A stretch of DNA of 64,000 bases from Catenulispora sp. MAP5-51. Lineage in GTDB: Bacteria; Actinomycetota; Actinomycetes; Streptomycetales; Catenulisporaceae. The stretch is from positions 124,001-188,000 of the forward strand of contig NZ_JBGCCH010000003.1 of assembly GCF_041261205.1 (NCBI RefSeq). The letters run 5' to 3'. Shown here in pieces: positions 54,936 through 61,610 of this stretch. Positions within the stretch are counted from its first letter, which is position 1. The number at the start of each line of letters is the position of its first letter. The position numbers were made by a program, and so were the translations under genes. The notes beneath the pieces were generated by a model. That model saw nothing but the letters and a program-made list of their open reading frames with translations, did not search any database and was not told where the DNA came from.

Positions 54936-57900
54936 TCAGCGGATGGCGTCACGGAGCTTGCGCAACGTGGCGACACCGTCGGAGTGCCCCGCGACCTCGG
55001 CATCGGCGATGGCCTTGTCGAGCCGGGCCTTCGCGGCGTCCTCCCGATCCAGCGCCCGATACTCGATCACGGCAGCCTGCCGAATCGCATCGAACCGCGG
55101 CGCGATCCCCGCGAACCCGGGCCGGTCGTAAAGCAGCGCGGCCCGCTCCAACTGCTCGATGGCCTCCTCCGGCCGCCCCGCGGCATTGAGCACCCACCCG
55201 CGCGTGTAGCAGGTCTGCGCCTCATCGACCTCGACACTGAGGAACTGATGCCGCGAAGCCTCCGCGAACCCCACCCGCATCCGATCAGCCTCATCCAGAT
55301 ACCCGAGCGCCTCATCAGCACCCTCGGCCCCGAAGGCGTTGATGGTCTCCCCAGCCATGTCCCGCAGAGCCTCGGTCATATCCGGAACCCGCGGCGCCAC
55401 GGCATTCGAGGCGACAGCCCGAGCCCAAGCAGCCCGAGCCCCCTCCCAATTCCGCGCCAGAGCAAGCGCTCCCGCAGCCTCGGCAGCGGCAGCCGTCAAC
55501 CGACTCGCGTCAGGCCACCCGTCCACAGCATCGGCGACATGCAGGAACTCGACGGCAGCTGCCCGCGGCTCCTCCAGCGCGAGCAGCCCCCGCGCCAGGT
55601 CGGCGCGCACTTGGACCATGAGCATGTCGGCGCGGGTCGGATGCTTGGTCGGCTTGGCGGGCGGGGGAGTGGGGGCTGTTTCGCTCGGGTCAGCAGCTGC
55701 GTGGCCAGCGGCAGCCAGGTCCGGTTCGGCCTCGCTCGCCGCACCGTCGCCGAATTCTGTCTCGCCTGCGCCAGCAGCTTCCCGATCCGCACCAACCGGC
55801 TCGCCGGGCATCTCCGCGCCTGCGCCGGCAGATCCGTGCCCATCAGGAACCAGCTCGCCGCCGCCTTCGTATCCGCCATCGCCCCGCAGCGGCACTTCGA
55901 CCAGCGTCTCCAGCACCGCCACCGCGTCCGCGGTCTGCCCCTGTGCCGCCAGCGCGCTGCTCATCCGCCACCGCGTCTCCACGGCGCCGAAGGCGTCGCC
56001 CTCGCGGTCGAGGCGGACCGCTGCTTCGGCGAACGCGCGGACTGCGGTGGCGTGCTCGCCGCCCTGCAACGCTGTCTCGGCGAGCAGGCGGTACAGGGGT
56101 GTCAGCTCCTCCGGCTCGACTGCCGGGTGTGCTTCGGCGATGCCCGTCTGCAAGATCCGCATCGCATCCGCGTGGCGGTCTTGGCCGGCCAGGCTGAGGC
56201 CGAGGATCATGCGGGAGCGGTGCAGGCGCCAGGGCCACTTCAGGTCCGTGAAGATCTGCAGGGCGTGGCGGGCCAGCGGTTCGGCCGCCTTGGGGTCGTC
56301 GTGGGTGGCGTCGTACTCGGCGACCGCCTCCAGTACCAGGGCCAGGCGCTGGGGTGCGTCGAAGCCGGTGCCCTCGCGGACCATGCGGTCCGTCTCGGCG
56401 CGGAAGACGCCCAGCCATCGCTCGCGGTCCTGCGCGTCAGCCGCTCGGATGGCCGCGTTGCGGGCCGCGAACACCCGGCTCTGGTGTACCACCAGCTTCT
56501 GGACCTGCGCGTCGGCCAGATGCGGTCCGAGGCCGCCGCCGGCCAGCAGGGTGTCGATCTGCTGCAGCAGTGCGTTCAGCTCCGGCCACGTTTCCTCGGT
56601 GACCGCGCCCGCGTCAGCCTCCTGATCCCCGCGTGTGGCCTTGCTCCACTCCACCCGGGCCTGCGACGCGATCGCCCGGTCCGGACGCCCCGCGCGCTCA
56701 TACGCCGTGGCCGCCTCCAGGAAGTGCGTCTTCACCGCGTCCCAGTCCCGCGCCTGGTGCGCACGGCTCGCGCGCTCCGTCGCGATCTCCCCGCGCAGCA
56801 TGTCGTCCACCTTGTCGGCGTCCGCACCCTCCGCGCGCTCCAGCAGCGCGTCCCACAGACGCCGCGAATCCGGATGGAACTGCTTGTCCAGCACCAACGC
56901 CTCGGTCACCAAAGCCTCGAAGTCGTCCGGCACGACAGTGGCAGGACCTTGAGAAGCGGCGACCGCAAGGCCGACCGAAGGCGCAGCGAGCGCAGAATCA
57001 GCACTCTCCGAATCCGACAGTTCGGACAGTGCCGACAGAACGGTCAAGGCAGCTGCCCGCACCCCGAGATTCAACTCCCCGACCAAAGGCACCGCCGCCA
57101 GCCGCTCAGCCCGCCGCCCCGAAACCGTCGCGTTCCCGTTCCGCGCGTCGAACCGCGCCGCCAGCGCGTCCGCGTCCGCCGCGACCGACTCCCGCAGCTC
57201 GGCGACCGTCCACTCCCGCCCCAGCGGCCCGCCGCAGGGCGTGTCCGCGTGCCCGACCGCCGCCAGACGGCGCAGCAGCAGCTCGACCCGGGTCAGGAAC
57301 TCCAGCCGGCCCAGCGGCGCCGCCGTGAAGCCGAACAGCGCCCGGTTCTGCGCCAGCAGCTCCAGCCCGCGCGCCTCGTTCCCGGTCAGTGCGCAGAACT
57401 CCAGGTGCCGTCCGACCGAGGCCAGGTACGCCTCGCGCCCCCGCACCGTCCGGTACGAGGCCAGGTGCGCCCCGCGCGCCTCGTCCGTCCGGCCCAGCCG
57501 GACCAGCGGCAGCAGCGCCACCGACTGGCTCACGTGCGGCTCCTCGTCGCACTTACTGCGGCCGTCCAGCGTCGGCTCGAGCTCGGCCATCCCGAGCTCG
57601 TCCTCGCCGCGCCCGAAGTGGTACTCGGCCCGCGCGCGGGCTTCGCAGGCCTCGCAGTCGCTCATCCGCGTCCGGCCGCGCGTGGCCCACAGCTCGTAGG
57701 CCAGTTCCTCGCCCTCGCCGATGTGCTGCGCGAGCGAGTGCAGCTGGCCGTACACAGGCTGCAGGCCGTGGTCGGCGGCCTCGTAGCGCTTGCGCATCTC
57801 GGCGATCCAGCCGCGGATCGCCGGCAGCGGCACGTCCGGCGTGGTGAGCAGGCCCGAGCCGACCCACTTGAAGTACCAGAAGACGCGGTGCGCCTCCCAG

Positions 57901-58157
57901 TCGTCGAACGCCTTCGGGTTGCGGTCCCACAGCCGCAGCAGCCGCGCGAACACCACCGGGTACTTCACCCGCTCGCCGCTGCCGTGGTAGGCGCTCATCA
58001 GCTCCACCAGCGCGGTGGCGGTGACCTCGTCGTCGCCGAAGACCTCGGCCTCGTCGGCGATCTCCTCGGCGATCGCCGCCTTGGCCCGGCCGTCGCCGCG
58101 CTCGCGGTTCTCGCGCAGCGCGCCGAAGAACTCCTCCTTGGTGGAGAACCCGCTCAC
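54936..58157 (-). CDS. Large TPR-like repeat protein coupled to an Hsp90 gene
   Basis: 1,073 residues, no signal peptide or membrane helix. The chain is helical throughout, with many TPR-like helix pairs. Examples are the segments around RARAEYHFGRGEDELGMAEL, FLEAATAYERAGRPDRAIAS, DRHADAMRILQTGIAEAHP, ATAVRAFAEAAVRLDREGDA and the last two, GWVLNAAGRPEEAIEQLERA and REDAAKARLDKAIADAEVAG. An acidic Ala/Gly/Pro linker at residues ~745-850 divides it into two solenoids. Its start overlaps the Hsp90 stop (ATGA at 58157-58154), so the two proteins should be made in step. A co-chaperone or client-adaptor role is inferred from this coupling and from the role of TPR proteins with eukaryotic Hsp90. Confidence 0.82.
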   Translation of the reverse strand: MSGFSTKEEFFGALRENRERGDGRAKAAIAEEIADEAEVFGDDEVTATALVELMSAYHGSGERVKYPVVFARLLRLWDRNPKAFDDWEAHRVFWYFKWVGSGLLTTPDVPLPAIRGWIAEMRKRYEAADHGLQPVYGQLHSLAQHIGEGEELAYELWATRGRTRMSDCEACEARARAEYHFGRGEDELGMAELEPTLDGRSKCDEEPHVSQSVALLPLVRLGRTDEARGAHLASYRTVRGREAYLASVGRHLEFCALTGNEARGLELLAQNRALFGFTAAPLGRLEFLTRVELLLRRLAAVGHADTPCGGPLGREWTVAELRESVAADADALAARFDARNGNATVSGRRAERLAAVPLVGELNLGVRAAALTVLSALSELSDSESADSALAAPSVGLAVAASQGPATVVPDDFEALVTEALVLDKQFHPDSRRLWDALLERAEGADADKVDDMLRGEIATERASRAHQARDWDAVKTHFLEAATAYERAGRPDRAIASQARVEWSKATRGDQEADAGAVTEETWPELNALLQQIDTLLAGGGLGPHLADAQVQKLVVHQSRVFAARNAAIRAADAQDRERWLGVFRAETDRMVREGTGFDAPQRLALVLEAVAEYDATHDDPKAAEPLARHALQIFTDLKWPWRLHRSRMILGLSLAGQDRHADAMRILQTGIAEAHPAVEPEELTPLYRLLAETALQGGEHATAVRAFAEAAVRLDREGDAFGAVETRWRMSSALAAQGQTADAVAVLETLVEVPLRGDGGYEGGGELVPDGHGSAGAGAEMPGEPVGADREAAGAGETEFGDGAASEAEPDLAAAGHAAADPSETAPTPPPAKPTKHPTRADMLMVQVRADLARGLLALEEPRAAAVEFLHVADAVDGWPDASRLTAAAAEAAGALALARNWEGARAAWARAVASNAVAPRVPDMTEALRDMAGETINAFGAEGADEALGYLDEADRMRVGFAEASRHQFLSVEVDEAQTCYTRGWVLNAAGRPEEAIEQLERAALLYDRPGFAGIAPRFDAIRQAAVIEYRALDREDAAKARLDKAIADAEVAGHSDGVATLRKLRDAIR

Positions 58158-60031
58158 ACGTCACCCCGTGCGTCGGAAGCGGTGTCCGCCGCGGTGCCGC
58201 CCGCGTTCCCCCCGCCCGCGGCCGCCGCGAACTCCAGCAGCCCGATGAATGACCGGTTCAGCAGCGCGTGGTCGGCCGGCCGCAGCGGACGCCGCGACAA
58301 CAGCAACGCCTGGCCGTACAGAGCCTCGATCGCGGTCTCCGACAGCGCCGGGTCCGCGATGTCCGCGATCTTCCGGATCAGGGGATTGAGATGGTTGACG
58401 ATCAGCTGCGCGCGCGGCGCCGAGGACCCCAGCGATCCCAGGATCCCGGCCCACAACTCGTCGGCGTCCGCCGAGAGCTCCGCGCGCCGCCGCTCGTGCC
58501 GGGCCTCGCGGTTGTCGACCAGCATCGCCGGCACGCCGACCGGCTGGAACGAGCGAAGCGCCACGTCGGTGTCGAACTTGTCGCAGACCGCCCGGGCCCG
58601 CGCCAGGAACGCCGCCGCCGCGAGTTCGGCCGCCGGGTCCACGGTGTCCAGGTGCGCGCTGACCGTCTCGGGGTCCAGGTCCGCGACCGTGACCCCGGGC
58701 CGGACCTCCGGAAGCCGGTGGACCAGCTCCCTGTCGTACACGTACCCGCCGTTGACGACGCCGAGCCCGGCCGAGGCCGCGATCGGCGCGACCTGCCGGA
58801 ACTCCTCGACGCTCTGCGTCACCAGCACCACCGGGTGCGCGCGGGCGAACTCGTCCAGGCTGACGTTGCCGTCGGTGGTCTCGAACGGCAGCCAGGGCAG
58901 CAGCAGCGCCAGCAGCCGGTCGTCGTAGCGGGCCAGCGCTTTGACCGCCAGGTGGTGCACGTCGATGAAGCGCCGCAGCAGCGTCAGGTCCGAGGCCGCC
59001 AGCCCCACCAGCCACTCGCGGATCCGCTCGCCGATCGCGTCGCGCACCGCGGCCAGCGTCTCGTCCTCGTACAGCGCCTCGCGCGAGGCCGTGGGCCGCA
59101 GCCCGGTGGTGTCCACGACGCAGGACACGAAGAAGGCCCAGTCCGGCACCAGCTCCTGCGCCGAGTCCGACAGCAGCATGCCCTTGAGGTGGACGCGGTG
59201 CCCGGAGCGCTTCGTCGGGTGCACCGGCGTGGGCAGCACGAACGCCACGCCCTTGAGCCCGACCAGCGGCAGGTCCAGGTCGATGGTGTCCAGCGGGGTG
59301 AAGTCGAACGTCGACTTCGCGTACCCGGCCAGCGCCTCGCGCCGGGCCAGCGGCGAGCCGTACTGCCGGTCCCACACCGGCGGGGTGTCGTTGACCTTGC
59401 TGACGTCGCCGAACCGGTCGACGATCTCCACGTCGTAGCGCAGCAGCGAGCCGAAGTGCCGGGCCAGCCGCAGCACGCGGTTGGGCTCCAGCCACTCGCT
59501 GCCGTCGCCGCGCGGCACCAGGGTGACCGTGGTGCCGGGCTCGGCGACCGTCCCGGCCGGCAGGGTCCTGATCCGGTACGTGCCGTCGCTGCGGCCGCGC
59601 CACTCCACGGCCGGCGCGTTCGCCTCGCGGGCGCTGCGCGAGACCACGGTGATCTCGTCGGCCACCACGAAGCAGGCCAGCAGGCCGATGCCGAACTGGC
59701 CGATGAAGTCCTGGCGGGCCGCGGTCAGGTCCAGGCCGCCGTCCTCGGCCCGCTTGGAGGACCGGCCGATGGTGGCCAGGAAGGTGTGCACGTCGGCCTC
59801 GGTCAGCCCGACGCCGGAGTCCTCGACCTGGATCCCGCCGTCCACGCCGGTCCGGATCCGGATCCGCGCCGGGGCCGAGGCGTCCAGCAGGCGGCGCGCC
59901 GTGATGGCGTCCACGGCGTTCTGCATCAGTTCCCGCAGATACACCTTCGGGGAGGAGTAGAGGTGGTGCGAGAGCAGGTCGACCAGTCCCCGCAGGTCGA
60001 CCTGGAATGTGTGGCCGGGTTCGGTGCTCAC
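58154..60031 (-). CDS. Hsp90-family ATPase (HtpG-like)
   Basis: 625 residues, the size of bacterial HtpG. The GHKL nucleotide site is intact: E34, N38 and D41 in LRELMQNAVDA, D71 in VEDSGVGL, and G-x-x-G-x-G in FIGQFGIGLLACF. The middle domain has the DTTGLRPTASREALYEDETL block that corresponds to the client/ATPase loop of HtpG. The C-terminal third is less conserved and ends in a Gly/Ala-rich tail without an MEEVD-type motif. The GTG start at 60031 follows GGGGAG. It lies 11 bp after the upstream helical-repeat gene and overlaps the TPR gene. The sequence is quite diverged from housekeeping HtpG. Confidence 0.88.
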   Translation of the reverse strand: MSTEPGHTFQVDLRGLVDLLSHHLYSSPKVYLRELMQNAVDAITARRLLDASAPARIRIRTGVDGGIQVEDSGVGLTEADVHTFLATIGRSSKRAEDGGLDLTAARQDFIGQFGIGLLACFVVADEITVVSRSAREANAPAVEWRGRSDGTYRIRTLPAGTVAEPGTTVTLVPRGDGSEWLEPNRVLRLARHFGSLLRYDVEIVDRFGDVSKVNDTPPVWDRQYGSPLARREALAGYAKSTFDFTPLDTIDLDLPLVGLKGVAFVLPTPVHPTKRSGHRVHLKGMLLSDSAQELVPDWAFFVSCVVDTTGLRPTASREALYEDETLAAVRDAIGERIREWLVGLAASDLTLLRRFIDVHHLAVKALARYDDRLLALLLPWLPFETTDGNVSLDEFARAHPVVLVTQSVEEFRQVAPIAASAGLGVVNGGYVYDRELVHRLPEVRPGVTVADLDPETVSAHLDTVDPAAELAAAAFLARARAVCDKFDTDVALRSFQPVGVPAMLVDNREARHERRRAELSADADELWAGILGSLGSSAPRAQLIVNHLNPLIRKIADIADPALSETAIEALYGQALLLSRRPLRPADHALLNRSFIGLLEFAAAAGGGNAGGTAADTASDARGDV

Positions 60032-60042
60032 GTGTGGCTCCC

Positions 60043-61116
60043 CTACTTCTTTCGCTTCTTGACGCAGTCCTGCCGTGCCACCGCGAACACCCGCTCGGGG
60101 TCGCCGCGGTAGCGCCATGGGGCTTTGGTGGCGTGGTCCCCGATCCGCTCGAACAGCCGGCCCGCGGCCTCCTTGTCGTCGGCCAGCCAGAAGGCCATCG
60201 CGAAGGCGTTCAGCGCGGTGTACGGGGAGGACGTGGGGGCGAAGGCCGGGTGGAACACCGAGGCCTTGGCGGCCCGCCGCAGCTCCCCGAGCACCTCCGC
60301 GTGCCGGATGTAGAGGTCGTCGGGGCCCTGTTCCAGGTCCAGCCAGTGCTCCAGGTGGGCCTGCGCGACGATCTCGCCGAGGCCGCTGCCGGGCGGCGCG
60401 TCGGCGAAGGCCTGGGCGGCGAAGGCGTGCATCTCCTCGTGCGACCCGCCCCACTTCGCGCACAGCTGTTGGAGCATCTGCCGGTGCAGGCCGACGTGGC
60501 CGGGCGCGCGCCGGATCCCGGCCTCGAACCGCCGCCGGGTGATGTCGGCGCCGTGCTCCAGCCCGCGGCTGGTGACGCAGAGCGTGTGCCAGGGCGCGGC
60601 ACTGGCCGGATCGAGCTCGGCGGCGGTGTACAGGTACTCCTCGGCGACCCGCAGCCGCTCGTGGAACACCCGGAACTGCTCCTCGGACACCTGCGACGCG
60701 CGATAGCCGGTGCGCGCCTCCCACGCCCACGCCGAGTGCCGGGCACCGGCCACGCTCAGCGCCAGCGGGTCGCCGGGCAGCTGCTCGGGCAGCTTGAGCA
60801 GGAAGTCGCCGCCGAGATCCTCGACATTGCCGATCAGGAAGGTCAGCCGCTCGAAGTCGCCGCGCTCGCGCACCGGCCGCAGGATCGCCTCCATCCCGGG
60901 CCAGTCGGCCACCCGCGCGGCCTGCCGCAGCGCGGCCAGCTCCGGATCGCCGTGCGACCGGTCGATCGGCACCGGCTTCACGGCATCGGGCTGCGAGGCC
61001 CGCCCCGCCTTCCCGCCGGCCCGCCCGCCCCGCGTGCCGTATCCCTTGGCCAGCCCGCGCACGATGGACGCGGCGGCCACGGCGGCGACCGCCATGCTCG
61101 GGATGCTCGACGTCAA
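60043..61116 (-). CDS. Helical-repeat protein, first gene of the Hsp90 operon
   Basis: A 357-residue protein. A short hydrophobic N-terminus (SMAVAAVAAASIVRGLAKGYG) could be a membrane anchor or a buried helix. The rest is alpha-helical with TPR-like pairs and Trp/Ala-rich helices (LALSVAGARHSAWAWEARTG, VAEEYLYTAAELDPASAAPW, MLQQLCAKWGGSHEEMHAFAAQAF). The ATPase-independent fold resembles DUF4034-type proteins, but I am not certain of the family. The start is a TTG at 61116 with GGAGGGG eight bases upstream. It opens the operon with the Hsp90 and large TPR genes. Confidence 0.75.
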   Translation of the reverse strand: MTSSIPSMAVAAVAAASIVRGLAKGYGTRGGRAGGKAGRASQPDAVKPVPIDRSHGDPELAALRQAARVADWPGMEAILRPVRERGDFERLTFLIGNVEDLGGDFLLKLPEQLPGDPLALSVAGARHSAWAWEARTGYRASQVSEEQFRVFHERLRVAEEYLYTAAELDPASAAPWHTLCVTSRGLEHGADITRRRFEAGIRRAPGHVGLHRQMLQQLCAKWGGSHEEMHAFAAQAFADAPPGSGLGEIVAQAHLEHWLDLEQGPDDLYIRHAEVLGELRRAAKASVFHPAFAPTSSPYTALNAFAMAFWLADDKEAAGRLFERIGDHATKAPWRYRGDPERVFAVARQDCVKKRKK

Positions 61117-61268
61117 AGTGTGATCCCCTCCGTTGGCCCGGTCCGGCGCGGTTCACGGCCCGGCACGGCTACCGTAGCCGAACGGGCTGTCTGTGCGGTA
61201 ACCGGTTCGGCCGCTGCGCCGCAGGTCAGGTCTCCGGCTCGGACACGATGCCGGGAGGGGCGGCGGGG

Positions 61269-61610
61269 ATGCGAAAGGACTTGAGGAAGGGTGGTCGCGG
61301 GGTGGCCGGTGAGCCTGGCGGGGCGGCTGCGGGGACGGAGGTTCTCAGGTACCTGTCGGAGATCTGGCAGGAGCGGATGGGGGAGCGGACGCCGCTCGCC
61401 CACGAGTTCGTCACCGAGCATCGTGAGCGGTGGGTGCGGTTCCATAGCCTGCCGGAGTCGAAGCGGTACGCGAGTGACCAAGCGGAACGGCGGACGATCC
61501 TGGAGCGGCACTACACGGTGTTCGGGGAGCTGTTCGGTCGCGCCACCCCTCAGGCATGTGAAGCCGCCGTCTCGCAGACCTTTCGGAACTTCATCAAATC
61601 TGTAGCCTGA
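61269..61610 (+). CDS. Small hypothetical protein
   Basis: 113 residues. The central part reads like a conserved domain (LRYLSEIWQERMGERTPLAH ... WVRFHSLPESKRYASDQAER ... ILERHYTVFGELF). The W-V-R-F-H-S-L-P-x-S-K-R-Y stretch is a pattern I associate with uncharacterised actinobacterial proteins. The ATG at 61269 has GGGAGGGG upstream; an ATG at 61248 is less likely. The protein may be truncated at its C-terminus. It ends 5 bp before the GH30 gene. Function unknown. Confidence 0.6.
   Translation: MRKDLRKGGRGVAGEPGGAAAGTEVLRYLSEIWQERMGERTPLAHEFVTEHRERWVRFHSLPESKRYASDQAERRTILERHYTVFGELFGRATPQACEAAVSQTFRNFIKSVA

Follow-up and report, generated by a model that had tools for sequence, protein, structure and literature searches.

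In eukaryotes, Hsp90 is paired with co-chaperones carrying tetratricopeptide repeats (TPR), namely Hop/Sti1, the FKBPs and PP5, the TPR domains that classically bind Hsp90 being short clamps. Regarding bacteria, one source states that Hsp90 has no identified co-chaperones (PMC7926864), and in Streptomyces coelicolor two HTPG genes were put by the authors in different HTPG groups (PMC1525184). The locus considered here lies on the reverse strand of a 64,000-nt stretch of Catenulispora sp. MAP5-51 (contig NZ_JBGCCH010000003.1, positions 124,001 to 188,000; hereafter the window) and, as in the eukaryotic case, associates an Hsp90 with a TPR-repeat protein, but here there is no MEEVD motif, the repeats would form a long superhelix and the two genes are adjacent. 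HTPG2 of S. coelicolor, at 615 aa, is comparable as an additional Hsp90 of a streptomycete (Chen et al., 2006, PMC1525184), but the words 'operon' and 'TPR' are absent from the text of that paper. The main finding is a conserved gene pair, in which an Hsp90 paralogue distinct from housekeeping HtpG is directly followed by, and inherited together with, the gene of a helical partner. A description of this pair was not found in the literature searched, which left out preprints and most subscription papers. The features of the locus, in window positions, are as follows.

58154..60031, reverse strand: hsp90, an Hsp90 paralogue of 625 aa, GTG start at 60031 and stop at 58154, recognised by NF010683 and by its ATP-site residues.
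54936..58157, reverse strand: partner gene, a helical-repeat protein of 1,073 aa, GTG start at 58157.
57051..58157, reverse strand: N-terminal domain of the partner, residues 1-369, the part common to the Bacillota partners.
54939..56927, reverse strand: C-terminal TPR superhelix of the partner, residues 411-1073, as predicted in the model and not present in the Bacillota partners opened.
58154..58157, reverse strand: GTGA overlap, where the last GTG codon and TGA of hsp90 meet the start GTG of the partner gene.
60043..61116, reverse strand: upstream accessory TPR-fold protein, 357 aa, TTG start, with an in-frame ATG at 61095.

The initial annotation, made from the letters alone, had placed these three open reading frames (ORFs) correctly, as sequence and ORF checks bear out, and had rightly described an HtpG-size Hsp90 with E34, N38 and D71 intact; the overlap that it had read as ATGA is instead a 4-nt GTGA.

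Against NF010683 (PRK14083; 'HSP90 family protein'; curated cut-off 455 bits), the window Hsp90 scores 859.6 bits, its residues 5-605 covering model positions 4-598 of 604, while against the HtpG model NF003555 it scores 191.2 bits, under the curated cut-off of 371 bits. It is consequently a full-length member of NF010683 and not the housekeeping HtpG; its nearest named relatives, among the matches listed, belong to Catenulispora, at 93% and 92% identity over the best Hsp90 segment. The window genome carries three Hsp90-type genes including the window copy, the others being a second NF010683 gene at C7 (61% identical to the window Hsp90) and an HtpG-like gene at C21 (29% identical), so that the separate htpG proposed as a check does exist elsewhere in the genome. 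With HtpG, the family has in common its size, its GHKL ATP site, its catalytic Arg and its overall alignability, but it is set apart by the window protein's score of 191 against a cut-off of 371, by the altered docking-lysine positions described below and by the partner, which is missing from 20/20 loci whose Hsp90 scores below the NF010683 cut-off. The ATP site of the window protein is intact (E34, N38, D71, G75, G114, G116 and T167, plus R317); in the alignment, E34, N38 and D71 are kept in 108/109 family proteins (one is gapped there) and in 19/19 HtpG-like controls, and the catalytic-type Arg R317 is found in 109/109 family proteins. The family Hsp90 keeps all ATPase residues checked and is predicted to be of the ATPase-active type.

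Among the 80 nearest loci, i.e. the best 80 of at least 417 confirmed relatives in the named genomes, a relative of the partner lies directly downstream of the Hsp90 in 80/80. The junction measures -4 nt in 31 of them, -1 in 20, 0 in 8 and +2 in 6, the start call being ambiguous or different in the remaining 15. All these counts rest on tblastn or hidden Markov model (HMM) searches, because a gene finder using codon-position GC missed the window hsp90 and assigned hsp90 to the Hsp90 cluster in 72/80 loci. Since the 80 loci are the closest relatives of the query, sampling was widened to 394 genomes of the class, of which 46 exceed the NF010683 cut-off; the scores are bimodal, at least 454 bits on one side and at most 201 on the other, save for a split gene whose smaller fragment scores 319 bits. 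Twenty-three additional loci of the family, spread over seven taxonomic families within the class, were opened, and in 22 the N-terminal domain of the partner stands beside the Hsp90, as opposed to 0/20 control loci below the cut-off, one of which (L209) was tested on the HtpG model and is divergent, at 181 bits, the other 19 being HtpG-like by their NF010683 scores alone. The co-occurrence of Hsp90 and TPR genes that had been put up for checking across Actinobacteria was accordingly found, and the overlapping pair is conserved apart from housekeeping HtpG. The exception among the 23 loci, L127 (7593-10369), has a family Hsp90 that is divergent; another ORF, TPR-looking by eye, overlaps the end of this Hsp90, has no match to the partner profile and is possibly a second, independent TPR partner. 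In locus L188 (G659:C1:2664000-2680000), the hsp90 of the pair is split over two frames, by pseudogene formation or sequencing error, and the partner is open.

Regarding presence and absence, the 197 genomes of the order comprise 129 with the family Hsp90 and 133 with the partner N-domain: 129 have both, none the Hsp90 only, four the partner only and 64 neither (Fisher p 1.5e-47, a value overstated because the genomes are related). Two control genomes, those of Deinobacterium chartae and Corynebacterium glutamicum, likewise score over the Hsp90 cut-off. In a sample of 198 genomes across the phylum, 10 of 11 partner places adjoin an Hsp90. For tree comparison, 116 loci were considered: 115 have both genes, and in 113 the two domains lie on the same strand within -50 to 300 nt, the exceptions being L177 and, since its second tandem copy scored best, L250. 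After filtering (0-400 nt, Hsp90 score >250), which dropped six, the Hsp90 and partner trees of 109 pairs agree with a patristic r of 0.953, the best of 1,000 label permutations reaching 0.25, and share 59 of 106 splits. This shows that the Hsp90 and its partner are jointly inherited; the match of the trees by itself indicates inheritance and not contact.

Such figures could also arise if the pair were merely co-transcribed and inherited together, gene order having no functional meaning. Operons can indeed persist by descent, and the Streptomyces core locus is syntenic. In 45/80 loci, the pair lies in a conserved chromosomal context without the upstream gene, between recG and a DAK-domain gene (both named by eye). 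But the pair persists in different contexts and in another phylum, and the 20 Hsp90 loci opened below the cut-off never show the partner, which makes this explanation very improbable. By eye, no neighbouring gene recurs across families of the class, but some recur among related loci. In one locus (L125:6240-12478), MoxR-like AAA and VWA genes lie, by eye, directly upstream of the pair, next to proA and nadD.

The pair is also present in a second phylum, Bacillota, which goes beyond what had been proposed for this locus. A tblastn search with the partner in 72,556 plasmid-collection records gave six matches, five of which adjoin an Hsp90, in three Streptomyces, in Paenibacillus cellulosilyticus and in Listeria monocytogenes; of these the Paenibacillus record was opened, together with a different record of Listeria. 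Their Hsp90s score 715 bits (Paenibacillus) and 799 bits (Listeria), over the NF010683 cut-off, and are, like the window protein, full-length members of this family, whose name is silent on any partner. The Paenibacillus partner (353 aa) matches the N-domain profile at E 1e-46 and the Listeria partners, of 324 and 320 aa in tandem, at E 6e-35 and 1e-35, the second Listeria ORF starting 6 nt earlier in that search. Where the pair records carry annotation at that place, which is the case for two, the partner gene is labelled 'hypothetical protein' in both. A search of 50,697 phage records gave two matches for the partner N-domain, an UNVERIFIED faecal scaffold, which carries another Hsp90-partner pair, and an unannotated 5-kb Listeria phage record. 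For the Hsp90 it gave 19, most of them weak or HtpG-like, with the faecal scaffold and two short Listeria records as the top three. A phage origin of the pair was rejected, these few matches being probably bacterial DNA.

The Bacillota partners opened consist of the N-domain with its CxxC motif only, with no TPR superhelix. The core of the partner is a helical domain of ~370 aa with a CxxC...C motif, to which a TPR superhelix is appended in actinobacteria. Among 14 diverse sequences, the invariant residues of this domain are A37, W94, K97, W98, C168, C171, G199, C203, P207, A227, D337 and R339, C255 being invariant only in a set of 33 sequences, all from the order of the query; the positions KW, CxxC, C and DxR of the family profile (A4) are present in members from both Actinomycetota and Bacillota. 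A putative metal site is plausible.

The AlphaFold2 model of the 1,073-aa partner is all-helical and of TPR type (predicted local distance difference test, pLDDT, 87; predicted template modelling score, pTM, 0.80), with low confidence at residues 366-403 and 762-829. Its structural matches cover residues 411-1073, not the N-domain, and those listed nearest are long TPR superhelices of LGN, TTC7B and OGT type (3sf4_C: Z 20.0 over 338 residues at 6.5 A). Because helical repeats easily give middling Z values, these matches speak for a TPR superhelix and not for a function; the model supports a tandem helical TPR superhelix at residues 411-1073, that is a fold. Pfam gives weak TPR matches below gathering scores. 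In NCBIfam, the window partner matches no model of its own, its 21 bits to MamA falling short of the cut-off of 200, and the first Listeria partner matches no family.

As for the surfaces through which the two proteins could meet, MEEVD is found neither in the window Hsp90 nor in 109 full-length family ORFs, and EEVD occurs in none of their last-30-residue tails (0/109), which upholds both the lack of MEEVD noted at the outset and the corollary that docking would have to differ. In E. coli HtpG, K238, K354 and R355 are, as we take it, the residues docking DnaK, a role reportedly described by Genest and colleagues in 2015. In the alignment, the K354 position holds K or R in 19/19 HtpG-like controls and 0/109 family members, and the K238 position in 16/19 controls and 2/109 family members, the family having mostly Y or H there (97). 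The R355 position mostly retains R in the family (94/109), and therefore the DnaK-docking site is changed rather than erased. On the role that we assume for the docking lysines, this suggests that the family Hsp90 may have given up the DnaK hand-over in favour of its own partner. In human Hsp90, a mutant for Hsp70 binding is K418A,K419A (PMC7688965).

The explanation that we favour, tentatively and at somewhat under even confidence, is a two-gene Hsp90-adaptor (co-chaperone) module with putative contact between the two proteins, extended by an accessory third gene in the window; the co-occurrence, the adjacency, the matching trees and the Bacillota pairs were counted for it, as were the altered K354 position and the gammaproteobacterial pairs described below. 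Translational coupling would set the ratio of Hsp90 to partner, and the partner N-domain would dock on the Hsp90 dimer, possibly at the middle domain where the DnaK-docking lysines of HtpG are replaced, and tune its ATP cycle. The TPR superhelix would present clients or substrates, and in the clade that has it the upstream TPR protein may confer further specificity, for clients or in regulation. The module would then operate in the manner of an Hsp90 that depends on co-chaperones, lacking MEEVD and probably DnaK hand-over too.

Several observations weigh against such an adaptor. The operon and the co-inheritance would look no different if the partner were a dedicated client. Besides, four of the 133 partner-bearing genomes of the order lack the family Hsp90 (G171, G729, G851 and G880), and in those four no HtpG exceeds its cut-off, ~20-bit fragments being seen in two. 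In Actinomyces oris, a partner has no Hsp90 within 6 kb, and the family is not universal, the 64 genomes of the order with neither gene being a case in point. Among other copies, the core locus of G743 holds the partner and lacks hsp90, the full pair being encoded elsewhere in that genome; G828 has a second partner gene matching from profile position 215; and in G758 two tandem partner-like ORFs stand with no Hsp90 beside them (L248). Since such genomes and loci exist, the partner can still serve a function in the absence of any Hsp90, which accords equally with an adaptor and with a client or effector. In L146, L241, L242 and L243, from genomes with neither the family Hsp90 nor an HtpG over the cut-off, the orphan partner loci share a common genomic context, adjoined in L146 by what is, by eye, an IS110-like transposase.

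These genomes bear on the possibility that the TPR protein is an effector and the Hsp90 its private chaperone, which would fold or arm this one client and have no general role. The loss is asymmetric, with no genome keeping the Hsp90 alone and four keeping the partner alone, those having no HtpG over the cut-off, and it is on account of these four that weight was moved to this explanation from the adaptor. The orphan genes of the four genomes are long and open with neighbours in common, and the G743 core locus likewise has the partner and no hsp90. Yet the partner has no recognisable catalytic domain by Pfam, NCBIfam and fold comparison, consisting of helical repeats only; the Bacillota partner, being the N-domain alone and present in two copies in Listeria, suits an adaptor at least as well; and the orphan copies have diverged (profile E 1e-72 to 1e-95), perhaps with a change of function. 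A private chaperone of one effector is a serious possibility, but rather a doubtful one.

Concerning the third gene, which ends 11 bp before the Hsp90 start, its position and its predicted fold agree with the second helical-repeat protein that had been described upstream: the model is all-helical and of TPR type (pLDDT 86, pTM 0.85), the best Foldseek matches are TPR proteins with low TM-scores, and Pfam gives no match. Its relatives lie 5' of hsp90 in 32/80 nearest loci, and on the Hsp90 tree its distribution (37 of 109 tips) requires one change, a single gain, as opposed to at least 24 for shuffled labels; the tip L253 has no match to the upstream gene. Beside hsp90, the gene is thus met in one clade only. 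The profile of the upstream protein finds 645 matches in 196 of the order's 197 genomes, with as many as nine in one genome. The family Hsp90, by comparison, occurs in 129 of those genomes with at most two matches each; therefore, most members of the upstream family lie elsewhere. Because of the single gain and of these relatives elsewhere, the three-gene form is a clade-specific extension of the two-gene unit. The initial annotation had claimed a three-gene operon, of which the conserved Hsp90-partner pair stands; the upstream gene does not share in it (32/80 loci, one gain) and, its homologues being mostly away from hsp90, the claim fails for this gene. A fused ORF of the upstream gene and Hsp90 in locus L050 was ruled out by a stop codon between the two.

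Beyond the family proper, the four gammaproteobacterial loci opened all show an Hsp90-like gene followed 1-36 nt downstream by a gene of ~770 aa.

L254:4947-9170, L255:4962-9109, L256:7001-11144 and L257:5881-10122: gammaproteobacterial pairs, from X. vasicola, S. Infantis, E. coli SE15 and P. aeruginosa (in no stated order).

The genes of these pairs, labelled 'ATP-binding protein' or hypothetical and TPR or hypothetical, recall the window in that an Hsp90-like gene has an adjacent downstream gene, but the Hsp90-like proteins, at 277 and 293 bits in the two scanned, are below the NF010683 cut-off. All four ~770-aa partners align, and scanning two of them gave weak TPR matches. The A4 partner HMM has no match at E 10 on two of the loci, and hhalign with the window partner family gives a probability of 22%, CxxC being aligned. 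These pairs, whose partners are at most putative homologues of the window partner, lend support by analogy only. In E. coli, the Hsp90-like gene occurs in 245 of 5,426 genomes, one locus having been opened. On a cyanobacterial plasmid (Pseudanabaena, L258:5213-13356), the gene of an 877-aa Hsp90-like protein has TIR-domain, TPR, VWA and AAA genes in its neighbourhood, which resembles the setting of conflict systems.

This last context, together with the presence of some copies on plasmids, would suit a defence-like sensing or conflict device, in which the Hsp90 ATPase would be the switch and the TPR proteins the sensors; the window Hsp90 also has weak matches, in its ATPase region, to the PADLOC models TmtA and type II restriction endonuclease (REase_II). 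But those matches are confined to the ATPase domain and neither window partner has any, 45/80 loci share one conserved chromosomal context and, by eye, the neighbourhood of the pair shows no effector candidate shared between families, so that a defence role is improbable. A known anti-phage defence system was rejected, as PADLOC yielded partial ATPase-domain matches only, for the window Hsp90 and closer relatives.

Upstream of the operon, the best match to the heat-shock operator HAIR has 6 mismatches of 14 and CIRCE has no match within 7 mismatches, taking both motifs in the form that we assume for them; no sigma-70-type promoter or terminator was matched there, nor any Rfam family at gathering scores at the locus. 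Divergent from the operon, a small gene at window 61248-61610 (+) has a partial DUF3885 match at 44 bits.

A near-constant partner of a bacterial Hsp90 would surprise specialists, and the initial annotation did not foresee how striking the two-gene core is. One may go further and see in the family an old bacterial class of Hsp90 paralogues with an obligate linked co-chaperone, built on the CxxC helical domain and shared by at least two phyla, with parallel or distant pairs in Proteobacteria; this is conceivable, if well short of even odds in our judgement. If true, dedicated Hsp90 adaptors would not be a eukaryotic invention, and docking would proceed without MEEVD. Be that as it may, a partner that goes with a single Hsp90 family in both phyla offers a concrete and testable candidate for a bacterial Hsp90 helper, and its small versions, such as those of Listeria (324 aa) and Paenibacillus (353 aa), suit biochemistry. 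It would provide a bacterial model of Hsp90 specificity without MEEVD, and would give a role to an Hsp90 paralogue hitherto annotated by name only.

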